39,936 bases of DNA, taken from contig CALWXG010000019.1 of NCBI GenBank assembly GCA_944385435.1, forward strand, positions 1 to 39,936. Reading direction: 5' to 3'. The notes under the pieces were generated by a model. It saw only the letters and a program-made list of their open reading frames with translations. It was not told the origin of the DNA and searched no databases. Source of the stretch: an uncultured Oscillospiraceae bacterium. GTDB lineage: Bacteria > Bacillota > Clostridia > Oscillospirales > Oscillospiraceae. Position numbers and translations under genes: made by a program. Position 1 is the stretch's first letter. The number at the start of each line of letters is the position of its first letter. Shown here piece after piece: positions 34,795 through 37,757 of this stretch.

Positions 34795-34856
34795 TGTTTC
34801 ATTTCACCTCCGGGATAATTGAATGGGCAGAGCCCTTCACTCACGGTGAAATACCG

Positions 34857-34973
34857 CAAATAAAAAGCACTGCTCTCGTGTCAAGACGAAAACAGCGCAG
34901 ACAAATTCTGTATGAGCTGCATTCTCGGCTGGATTTACTCCGGAAGCCCGGATACCGGCTGTCTTCGAACACG
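34857..34973 (-). ncRNA. Ribosomal protein L10 leader with attenuator
   Basis: The rplJ transcript leader. On the minus strand, 34898-34887 pairs with 34878-34867 over 12 positions (three G-T wobbles), followed by a T-rich run (TTTTTATTTG), forming a terminator. The region upstream is purine-rich and folded, as in the L10 leader family of Firmicutes, in which L10(L12)4 binding promotes termination. The limits are approximate. Confidence 0.82.
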
Positions 34974-34979
34974 ACAGAT

Positions 34980-35022
34980 ATTATATCGGTCCGGGAAGGT
35001 TTTGTCAAGCAAAACCTTCCCG
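34980..35022 (-). promoter_or_regulatory. rplJL promoter with its -35 box in the loop of an inverted repeat
   Basis: Minus-strand -35 TTGACA (35008-35003), 17-base spacer and -10 TATAAT (34985-34980) are full consensus. A perfect 13-bp inverted repeat (34992-35004 with 35010-35022) places the -35 box across its 5-base loop. It may end rplKA transcripts as well as start rplJL ones. Confidence 0.85.
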
Positions 35023-35083: not shown

Positions 35084-35779
35084 TTACACGAACTTCGCGG
35101 CGTTGACCTTCACACCGGGGCCCATGGTGGAGGCTGCCACGCAGCTCTTCACATACTGGCCCTTGGCGGCGGCGGGCTTGGCCTTGATGATGGCGCCCAT
35201 CAGGGCGTTCAGGTTGTCGGCCAGCTTCTCGGGGCCGAAGGAGACCTTGCCGATGGGGCAGTGGATGATGTTGGTCTTGTCCAGACGATACTCCACCTTA
35301 CCGGCTTTGATCTCGTTGACGGCCTGGGTCACGTTGGGAGTGACGGTGCCGGCCTTGGGGGAGGGCATCAGGCCCTTGGGGCCCAGGATCTTACCCAGAC
35401 GGCCCACAGTACCCATCATGTCGGGAGTGGCGACCACCACGTCGAAGTCGAACCAGTTCTCTTTCTGGATCTTCTCCACCATGTCCATATCGCCCACGAA
35501 GTCGGCGCCGGCGGCGCGGGCCTCATCGGCCTTGTCGCCCTTGGCGAAGACCAGCACGCGGGCGGTCTTGCCGGTGCCGTGGGGGAGGACGATGGCGCCG
35601 CGCACCTGCTGGTCGGCGTGACGGGAGTCAACACCCAGCTTGACGTGGAGCTCCACGGTCTCATCGAACTTGGCGGTGGCGGTCTTGATGACCAGGTCCA
35701 TAGCCTCGGTCACATCGTACTGCGCGGAGCGGTCAATGAGCTTCGCGCTGTCCACATACTTCTTTCCTTTAGTAGCCAT
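35084..35779 (-). CDS. rplA: Ribosomal protein L1
   Basis: Large-subunit protein of the L1 stalk, and in many bacteria a translational repressor of rplKA. The protein has 231 residues, normal length. N-terminal [11 protein letters not shown], the central domain II, and the signature [18 protein letters not shown], plus the [21 protein letters not shown] region near the C-terminus, are clear. The ATG has a GGAAGGAGG site. It lies 18 bases after rplK on the same strand. Confidence 0.98.
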
Positions 35780-36223: not shown

Positions 36224-36323
36224 TTGAAACAGCACCTCCTACATGAAATGTGGTGGTGACGGAGCGGGAAACGCTCCTCCCACGTTCGCGGCAGATCAGG
36301 TCTGCCGGTGTCTGCGCGCGGCC

Positions 36324-36484
36324 GCTCACGACGGCCCGGCGCTTCTGGGTTGTCACGTCTCGCCTGTTCGCGACGCGGTCCTAAGCCCTGCGACTGCACC
36401 AAAATCCTTTTGGCCCTTCGGGCCCGCCGGATTTTGGGCTCCGCTCCGGTCTTAGTCCGCTGCTCACGACGGCTCGGCGCTTCT
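36324..36484. repeat. Structured intergenic repeat element between nusG and rplK
   Basis: A 23-base sequence (GCTCACGACGGC-YCGGCGCTTCT) occurs at 36324-36346 and 36462-36484 with one mismatch. Between the copies lies an imperfect outer stem (36375-36385 with 36451-36460), a perfect 9-bp stem CCAAAATCC/GGATTTTGG (36399-36407 with 36429-36437) and a small GGCCC/GGGCC hairpin at its tip. The right copy abuts the nusG stop codon. It looks like a dispersed MITE or REP-type element or a structured RNA. No coding frame is supported from 36236 to 36485. Confidence 0.65.
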
Positions 36485-36485
36485 T

Positions 36486-37004
36486 TTAGATCGGTTCGAC
36501 CTGATCCAGTTCCAGTTCCACGGGAGTCTCCCGGCCAAACATGGAAACAACCACGCGGACCTTACCGCGCTCCTTGTCCACCTCTTCCACGGTGCCGATG
36601 AAGGACTCCAGGGCGCCGTCGGTGATTTTCACGCTGTCGCCCACGTTATAGGAGACGATGACCTCGCGTTTCTCCACACCCAGGGCTGAGATTTCATCGT
36701 CCGTGAGGGGGATGGCCTTGTCCCCGGTTCCCACAAAGCCGGTGACGCCCCGGATGTTGCGCACCAGATGCCAGGTGTCGTCGGTCATCACCATCTTCAC
36801 CAGCACATAGCCGGGGAACACTTTGCGCTCCACGGTTTTGGGGCCGTTTTCCGTGATTTCCGTGACCGTTTCCAGGGGAATGGAGACCTCGGTGATCAGA
36901 TCGTGCATGTTGCGGTTTTCGACGGCCCGCTCAATGGAAGCGGCCACCGTGTTTTCATAGCCGGAGTAGGTGTGGGCTACATACCACTTCAATTCGTCAG
37001 CCAT
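36486..37004 (-). CDS. nusG: Transcription termination/antitermination factor NusG
   Basis: Binds RNA polymerase and modulates pausing and termination. The protein has 172 residues: the NGN domain (KWYVAHTYSGYENTVAASIE at the start, FPGYVLVKM, VRNIRGVTGFVG) and a KOW domain (VGDSVKITDGALESFIGTVEEV). The start ATG 37004 follows secE by 12 bases. It belongs to the rpmG-secE-nusG block, typical of Firmicutes. Confidence 0.98.
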   Translation of the reverse strand: MADELKWYVAHTYSGYENTVAASIERAVENRNMHDLITEVSIPLETVTEITENGPKTVERKVFPGYVLVKMVMTDDTWHLVRNIRGVTGFVGTGDKAIPLTDDEISALGVEKREVIVSYNVGDSVKITDGALESFIGTVEEVDKERGKVRVVVSMFGRETPVELELDQVEPI

Positions 37005-37016
37005 GGGAATGACCTC

Positions 37017-37313
37017 TTAACCGAAGAGATTGAGCAGAGCCTCGACAACCTGCCGGGCAATGAAGTCGAAAACCCAGATAAAGATACCCACGATGATGAC
37101 GCACAGGATCACGGTGCCCACATTCTTCATGGTGTCCTTGCCGGTGGGCCAGGTGACCTTCTTCAACTCACCCCGCAGATCCTTGAACCAGCGGGCGATC
37201 CGATTGGGTTTCTTATCCTTTTTCTTGGCAGGAGCTTTCGCTTTATCCTGGGCCTTTTTGGAGCTTACGGACTCCTGGGCGGCGGTTTCGACTCGCTTTT
37301 CCTGTTCAGACAT
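37017..37313 (-). CDS. secE: Preprotein translocase subunit SecE
   Basis: Essential SecYEG subunit. The protein has 98 residues: a Lys/Ala-rich hydrophilic N-terminal extension of about 40 residues, the amphipathic segment FKDLRGELKKVTWPT common to SecE, and one transmembrane helix (about 64-88) near the C-terminus. The extension is longer than in B. subtilis SecE (about 60 aa in total). It sits between rpmG and nusG on the same strand. Confidence 0.96.
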   Translation of the reverse strand: MSEQEKRVETAAQESVSSKKAQDKAKAPAKKKDKKPNRIARWFKDLRGELKKVTWPTGKDTMKNVGTVILCVIIVGIFIWVFDFIARQVVEALLNLFG

Positions 37314-37349: not shown

Positions 37350-37514
37350 TTACTTGGTTTCCACGTGCAGAGTGTGCTTTCTGCAGAAGGGGCAGTACTT
37401 GTTGAGCTCCAGACGCTCAGTGGTGTTGCGCTTGTTCTTGTTGGTGTTGTAATTGCGCTGCTTGCACTCGGAACAACGCAGCGTGATCTTCACACGGTTA
37501 CCGGCTTTCGCCAT
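37350..37514 (-). CDS. rpmG: Ribosomal protein L33, zinc-binding form
   Basis: A 54-aa large-subunit protein. The translation begins [17 protein letters not shown] and ends [15 protein letters not shown] and CPFC form the two halves of a zinc site, marking the zinc-containing (C+) paralogue. ATG 37514 is preceded by AAAGGAGG. It opens the block rpmG-secE-nusG. A 200-base leader with several hairpins and an intrinsic terminator separates it from its promoter. Confidence 0.97.
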
Positions 37515-37549
37515 ATTCGGCACCTCCTTTTGAATTTAGCCTGCCGACG

Positions 37550-37586
37550 AAAAAACGCCGGACCGGCCGTACCGGTTCCAGCGTTT
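37550..37586 (-). terminator. Intrinsic terminator in the rpmG leader
   Basis: Minus-strand arm 37586-37572 pairs with 37566-37553 (AAACGC...GCGTTT, one bulged A and one mismatch or wobble) with a short loop, followed by six Ts (37555-37550). It lies 36 bases before the rpmG start, between promoter and gene, so it must be conditional. Confidence 0.78.
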
Positions 37587-37587
37587 C

Positions 37588-37722
37588 AAAAGGGCGCGGC
37601 GCACCCTGTATGAAGGCTACGGGAAACCGGCATTTTGCCTCCCTGTGGCCACAAAATGGGGAAGAGGGTTTTTGCGCCCATCCCGTAAAAATGCGCACAA
37701 AAAGAAAGCCCTGCTCACAGGT
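37588..37722 (-). ncRNA. Structured rpmG leader RNA, candidate regulatory element
   Basis: Upstream of the terminator, the transcript can form a long-range stem TACGGGA/TCCCGTA (37687-37681 with 37624-37618) enclosing a stem CATTTTG/CAAAATG (37658-37652 with 37637-37631). A further hairpin GGGTGC/GCGCCC lies at 37605-37591. An alternative TGCGC/GCGCA pairing near 37693-37670 would hide the ACGGGA strand. This has the look of a cis-acting RNA switch. The family is not recognised. Confidence 0.5.
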
Positions 37723-37728
37723 GCCACC

Positions 37729-37757
37729 ATCTTAGCACACTGCAAGGGGCTTGTCAA
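37729..37757 (-). promoter_or_regulatory. Promoter of the rpmG-secE-nusG block
   Basis: Minus-strand -35 TTGACA (37757-37752), 17-base spacer, -10 TAAGAT (37734-37729). The -35 box overlaps that of the divergent ruvX promoter. Confidence 0.85.

Follow-up and report, generated by a model that had tools for sequence, protein, structure and literature searches.

The operon rpmG-secE-nusG-rplK-rplA of an uncultured Oscillospiraceae bacterium appears to be controlled by transcription attenuation in a structured leader, and the most likely input is feedback by ribosomal protein L1. The leader lies in a 39,936-nucleotide stretch of DNA, hereafter the window. All of its features are on the minus strand, positions 37757 to 37515 holding the promoter, the leader and an intrinsic terminator (Table 1). 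Comparison with related leaders makes a real terminator/antiterminator switch well supported, with an intrinsic terminator standing between the promoter and a ribosomal protein gene and a covarying antiterminator that excludes it.

The initial annotation of this DNA had described a consensus promoter followed by a leader of about 200 bases, which agrees with the 10 of 12 consensus matches found and with the distance of ~208 nt from the probable start at 37722 to the rpmG ATG at 37514. A −35 box of the TTGAC type was present at an equal distance in 49 leaders from outside the genus (in a few of which it was read without its first T). The genes rpmG, secE, nusG, rplK and rplA follow one another in that order, with rplJ and rplL further downstream (NCBIfam models). 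Because the neighbouring gene, ruvX, is divergent and on the plus strand, the terminator serves the rpmG operon alone.

Table 1. Features of the rpmG leader and its operon, in window coordinates.
Feature	Position	Strand	Basis
Sigma-70 promoter, TTGACA-17-TAAGAT	37729..37757	-	10/12 consensus matches
Probable transcription start, A of ACCTG/ACCUG	37722	-	Inferred from promoter spacing and ACCU in 152/153 leaders (for 80 of them ACC was already part of the parse rule)
P0 5' strand CCUGUG, 5' end of the RNA itself	37716..37721	-	Covariation, order-wide pair test
P1 hairpin AGGG-[CUUUC]-UUUUUGUGCGCA / UGGGCGCAAAAA-CCCU, loop UUUUUACGGGA	37665..37712	-	Covariation
Pseudoknot 5' strand, P1 loop ACGGGA	37681..37686	-	Swap test, fold
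P2, variable small junction hairpin	37649..37661	-	Both-side changes in 4/4 pairs (helix 5)
P0 3' strand CACAGG, directly 5' of GA-GGC	37642..37647	-	Covariation
L1-like motif CACAGG-GA-GGC..GCC-GG with P3 (GGC/GCC); anti-antiterminator core	37627..37647	-	AGGGAGGC in 73/74 leaders
Antiterminator 5' strand GCCGGUUUCC	37622..37631	-	Swap test
Pseudoknot 3' strand CCCGUA	37618..37623	-	ACGGG/CCCGU changes to ACGGUG/CACCGU
P4, spacer hairpin within the antiterminator loop	37591..37608	-	Pair table and predicted fold
Antiterminator 3' strand, also terminator 5' arm, GGAACCGGU	37571..37579	-	Swap test, folds
Intrinsic terminator hairpin and six-U tract	37550..37583	-	Folding; relatives
Shine-Dalgarno region AAGGAGGUGCCG	37518..37529	-	Read from leader sequences
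rpmG, ribosomal protein L33, four-cysteine form	37350..37514	-	TIGR01023
secE	37017..37313	-	TIGR00964
nusG	36486..37004	-	TIGR00922
Second, canonical-looking L1 site before rplK, GUGG-GA-GGAGC..GCUCC-GUCA-CCAC	36250..36283	-	Sequence comparison
rplK, L11	35798..36223	-	TIGR01632
rplA, L1, proposed ligand	35084..35779	-	TIGR01169

The leader DNA was kept in all 24 other genomes of the genus, and the same search found it in none of 15 genomes from other families of the order; a 29-nt match in one genome (L025, G032) was discarded, its distance from rpmG there being large. The leader core was cast into a covariance model (R1) built from the 25 genus leaders. At E <= 0.1 this matched 18 of the order's 295 genomes, one of these matches (L042) being discarded as rpmG does not follow it; at E <= 0.01 it matched 52 of 250 in the family, distributed over 24 of 106 genera. 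Four low-scoring matches (L045-L048, 23.8 bits) were dropped as chance matches, the stretch that follows them reading as what we take to be a glycyl-tRNA synthetase T-box leader, and two sub-threshold matches inside L078 and L058 were also dropped. This gave 74 leaders (25 from the genus, 47 from elsewhere in the family and two from outside it, each of a different family), every one of them directly upstream of rpmG. Judged by sequence only, the exact core pattern occurred in 94 stretches of named genomes; among the matches listed (80 of 94) were Flavonifractor, Pseudoflavonifractor, Intestinimonas, Lawsonibacter and relatives. Rfam 15 gave no match to the leader at either gathering or permissive cut-offs, apart from a single chance match on the opposite strand, which bears out the earlier remark that no known leader class fits this locus; the analysis also supplies a covariance model of an RNA family that Rfam 15 lacks.

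Pairing was evaluated in 67 family leaders, 66 of them distinct. The proposed structure had 95.0% of cells paired compared to 85.6% for shuffled controls, in an alignment that was fitted to the tested structure and so favours it; both-side changes were seen in 17 of 28 pairs, in none of 500 shuffles did any measure come up to the observed value, and when the partners were slid as a control, pairing fell to <=53.5%. The check proposed in the initial annotation, that pairs should covary in homologous leaders, therefore came out in its favour. P0 was paired in 100% of cells across the 66 distinct leaders, with its fourth pair divided between GC (34) and AU (32), and P1 (helices 2-4) showed both-side changes in 11 of 15 pairs; its family form is AGGG-bulge-UUUUUGYGC.YA with the loop given in Table 1. 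These results support a three-helix junction of P0, P1 and P2, which would be closed by the 5' end of the transcript itself. P3 (GGC/GCC) is invariant, so that its pairing has no support from covariation. L026, the most diverged member of the genus, carries an additional P4-like hairpin, placed 3' of the aptamer and 5' of the terminator.

The comparison also supports a pseudoknot that joins the P1 loop to CCCGU. When partner strands were swapped between 67 leaders, own partners gave −9.4 kcal/mol and swapped partners −7.4 kcal/mol, and none of 5000 shuffles was as good (kinship retained). Outside the genus the gain was small (−9.44 compared to −9.18 kcal/mol, 22 of 5000 shuffles being as good). 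The fifth pair switches from G-C (25 leaders) to U-A (37), and the first is A.C in 7 of 67. A nested long-range stem had been noted at this place and is present, as UACGGG(A)/(U)CCCGUA, with 37681-37687 pairing to 37618-37624. The alternative pairing said to break this stem is the crossing hairpin UUUUUGUGCGCA/UGGGCGCAAAAA, and the comparative data allow the two to coexist as a pseudoknot.

The same swap test was applied to the switch, after six of the 74 leaders had been set aside for want of GCCG, a T-run or AGGGAGGC. For the antiterminator, formed by GCCGRNNUCC and the 5' arm of the terminator, own partners gave −14.1 and swapped partners −11.6 kcal/mol in 68 leaders (in L052 the terminator arm was wrongly picked), and the 43 from outside the genus gave −15.3 and −13.2; in both sets 0 of 5000 shuffles did as well, again with kinship retained. 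For P0 in the 68 leaders the result was likewise 0 of 5000. An antiterminator duplex of −10 kcal/mol or better was found in 67 of 68 leaders, L039 being the one that failed, as the best of sliding windows with no control; in L005 and L084 the best window was outside the expected arm. A generic terminator scan did not list 37583-37550, whose stem carries a bulge, whereas folding does show the hairpin, and relatives carry a terminator at the same place. Its six T end 35 nt before the rpmG ATG, one base from the 36 originally reported for a six-T intrinsic terminator. The further claim that this terminator must be conditional and regulated was strengthened, as the competing pairings covary in homologous leaders.

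P3 draws on the antiterminator strand, which overlaps the pseudoknot as well, and so aptamer plus terminator on the one hand and antiterminator on the other would be mutually exclusive. In RNA ending with the terminator 5' arm, the antiterminator fold was predicted at −56.4 kcal/mol, and the same RNA with the antiterminator forbidden at −42.6 kcal/mol with P0-P1-P2 intact; the leader to the U-tract folded as aptamer plus terminator at −72.4 (the pseudoknot was unscored in all three). The difference between the first two values suggests that read-through is likely the default state in these models, and that termination would need something that holds the aptamer. As a whole the leader is moderately unusual in fold energy (−82.3 compared to −71.9 +/- 4.7 kcal/mol when shuffled, z −2.2, 5 of 200 shuffles as good). 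The unconstrained minimum energy fold of the 208 nt pairs the 5' end elsewhere, whereas RNA cut at the terminator folds like the comparative model. The case for the leader is thus one of conservation and covariation, not of energy.

What might hold the aptamer is suggested by its core. An L1 site has a GA / C-R internal loop flanked by two helices, as in 23S rRNA H76-H77. The near-invariant GGGAGGC..GCCG of the leader resembles both the site upstream of rplK and helices 76-77 of 23S rRNA in the family, which read GGUGG-GA-G..C-R..AUA-CCACC in six family genomes, so that GGGAG..C-R..ACC is common to the three. In the leader the elements are AGG-GA-GGC..GCC-G and ACC, the ACC being the 5' end of the RNA and P0 the permuted helix. 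The core letters match the definition; helix II, however, is completed by the RNA 5' end where the definition has a contiguous strand, P3 is invariant, and helix I is followed by G in the leader but by A in the 23S rRNA of five of the six genomes. To our knowledge, no described L1 site takes helix II from the RNA 5' end instead of from a downstream strand. With rplA lying within the putatively controlled operon, L1 is the best candidate for the ligand, and on these sequence likenesses probably the right one.

The site before rplK was itself well represented: GTGGGAG preceded rplK in 67 of the 68 collected-leader loci with rplK in reach, and among 81 other order loci it was present in 66. The pattern misses an AA variant, which three f4 loci carry, and one of its 66 matches falls in coding sequence (L235). 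It is kept across the order with a varied helix I and had no Rfam match at gathering. The idea that every operon keeps at least one L1-like site was abandoned, since 0 of the 81 loci had neither and ~0.9 would be expected, which is not significant.

If L1 is the ligand, the antiterminator would form in its absence and the operon would be transcribed. L1 in excess over free 23S rRNA would bind the GG-GA-GGC/GCC-G motif at the P0/P3 junction, retain GCCG..CCCGU in the aptamer and free the terminator arm, so that transcription would stop. Several findings count against this model. R1 scores in just 52 of 250 family genomes, and with another L1-like site upstream of rplK the leader site is partly redundant; the permuted helix II, the invariant P3, the G that follows helix I, the small pseudoknot gain outside the genus, the exceptions in family f13 and the relatives without a terminator (see below) weigh on the same side.

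The switch could instead be real and respond to another product of the operon (L33, L11 or L10-L12) or to a complex. L33 is the product of the first gene, which in some leaders does encode the ligand; moreover, the P1/pseudoknot part exceeds a minimal L1 site and might serve to bind another molecule. However, according to Eckert and Weinberg (PMC7247131) the first gene predicts the ligand poorly, L10 seems to be served by a leader of its own before rplJ (sub-threshold RF00557), and the leader core resembles an L1 site, and we consider another ligand unlikely. The leader before rplJ, at 34852-34986 on the minus strand and with its own promoter by eye, scored 24.5 bits against RF00557, for which the cut-off is 44, and there was no RF00557 match elsewhere; it seems to be a diverged RF00557 member that annotation would miss.

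Autoregulation by NusG at a T-rich pause site in the leader, one of the inputs proposed initially, is considerably less probable. TTNTTT occurs in the first 60 nt of 69 of 74 and 76 of 85 leaders, counted without a chance control, inspection by eye shows a U-tract hairpin in many leaders from outside the order, and NusG-dependent pausing in leaders is known, as reported in the sections of PMC12288461 consulted. Such a motif is nevertheless cheap in U-rich RNA, the GGGAGG/ACC covariation and the antiterminator would be left unexplained, and nothing seen in the RNA points to NusG whereas its core resembles an L1 site. NusG pausing may act together with an L1 switch. An unregulated, partial terminator that merely sets the level of expression is more improbable again, as it needs no conserved and covarying antiterminator.

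The sequence AGGGAGG could also be read as the Shine-Dalgarno sequence of a leader peptide that controls the attenuator, and an ATG is found at a suitable distance in 27 of 73 leaders, that of the window included; but in 35 of 73 a start codon is missing at that place, and frames and lengths vary, so that the peptide was rejected and retains hardly any probability. The least credible input is zinc, acting through the zinc-form L33 as first proposed together with L33 itself: the encoded protein does have the four cysteines, but 111 of the 112 order genomes with an L33 match have a single one, the genome studied here among them (one PF00471 match and no zinc-free paralogue in an assembly 94% complete; G119 has two partial matches on separate contigs), with no sign of an alternative L33 form to switch to, nothing seen in the RNA hints at L33, and zinc-sensor sites were covered by the Rfam scan only.

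How far the proposed L1 site extends was addressed with another 87 rpmG loci, drawn from the 112 genomes of the order that had an L33 match. A promoter followed by ACC was parsed in 85 (in L216 one repeat early), and 80 of the 87 also had AGGGAG downstream. These 80 and 73 of the 74 collected leaders made a set of 153, chosen for AGGGAG. The base after ACCU formed a Watson-Crick pair with the base before AGGGAG in 143 of the 153, while the best of 2000 permutations gave 68; the permutations keep relatedness, yet the pair type changes between families, with G-C in 51, C-G in 45, A-T in 35 and T-A in 12, all four occurring across 18 families. The next two positions were also above the permutations (99, best 90; 101, best 84), and the fourth was not (33, mean 37). 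Family f13 is an exception at the diagnostic pair, with A.A in seven leaders and G.A in one. Within 260 nt before rpmG, AGGGAG was found in 0 of 25 loci from other orders of the class. Many of the loci outside the order (L277-L304) hold GGYUCUUUUUUUUGYGC with an A-rich return, a U-rich hairpin by eye, so that the L1-like part may be predated by the P1 hairpin or T-tract.

By our own rule no terminator was seen in 75 of the 80 order leaders, the other five having terminator-like hairpins. Most order leaders carry GCCG in the Shine-Dalgarno region GGAGGUGCCG, which suggests translational control in most of those without a terminator. This GCCG is likely the partner in the L1 site of such relatives, judging from its letters and position, and the same site would then block translation. 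In four family members (L041, L082, L083 and L085) no terminator was visible; AGGGAGGC and the ACC start were present, with GCCG at the Shine-Dalgarno sequence instead. Two close loci of family f20 (L187 and L188) have a convincing but different intrinsic terminator, AGCUUCUGUUUUU..AAACAGAAG-U6, and in these AAAAACAG, just 3' of the L1-like motif, can pair with the terminator 5' arm at −8.2 kcal/mol; this is perhaps an independently evolved attenuator.

Taken together, the order may have kept a circularly permuted L1 site across its families, to which the nascent RNA contributes its 5'-most five to seven nucleotides (ACCUN..) as the missing strand, with translational repression through the Shine-Dalgarno GCCG as output in most families and attenuation in part of the window's family (and perhaps, with an unrelated terminator, in f20), one aptamer having been re-plumbed between outputs; our own opinion on this broader proposal is evenly balanced. 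If it is true, the promoter-proximal end of the secE-nusG-rplKA operon, with its translocase, elongation-factor and ribosome genes, is under feedback from one ribosomal protein throughout an order to which Flavonifractor and other gut genera belong. Leaders that have the terminator and leaders that lack it both occur in nature, which makes the change of output of a regulatory RNA directly testable.

Elsewhere in the window, the nusG-rplK spacer (36284-36485, minus strand) is longer than in L003-L009 and contains GCGCCGRGCCGTCGTGAGC twice; longer spacers were also present in L002, L013, L016, L019 and L020 and not in others.

Leaders of ribosomal protein genes are a known kind of regulator, of which the rpmG leader is a variant absent from Rfam 15. 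A literature search by title and start of abstract returned neither an rpmG leader nor an L1 leader acting via transcription attenuation, either of which may be described in Fu 2013, Nevskaya 2005 or Meyer 2018. Like the leaders of Eckert and Weinberg 2020 (PMC7247131), ours is a conserved, covarying RNA before ribosomal protein genes; Table 1 of that paper, as distinct from its supplement of older leaders, which was outside the comparison, has no rpmG, L33 or L1 leader. With the B. subtilis infC-rpmI-rplT leader and its attenuation by L20, as outlined in part of PMC10931766, it shares the control of Firmicute ribosomal proteins by transcription attenuation, whereas protein, RNA and operon all differ. 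The B. subtilis rplJL leader, attenuated by L10(L12)4 according to the portion of PMC4538822 used, offers the same three states of anti-antiterminator, antiterminator and terminator, but has another ligand, RNA fold and gene, and no kink-turn site is claimed for the rpmG leader. The closest parallel in content is with the uL1 sites before rplK and rplA in Firmicutes, which the relevant part of PMC10931766 presents as irregular stem-loops with an internal bulge that control translation. The rpmG leader resembles these autogenous operators in its operon, in the GGGAG..C core of the rplK-proximal site and 23S H76-H77, and in the logic of feedback; it differs from them, as they are presented there, in that its site is promoter-proximal and before rpmG, is closed by the RNA 5' end, includes a pseudoknot and feeds a terminator.
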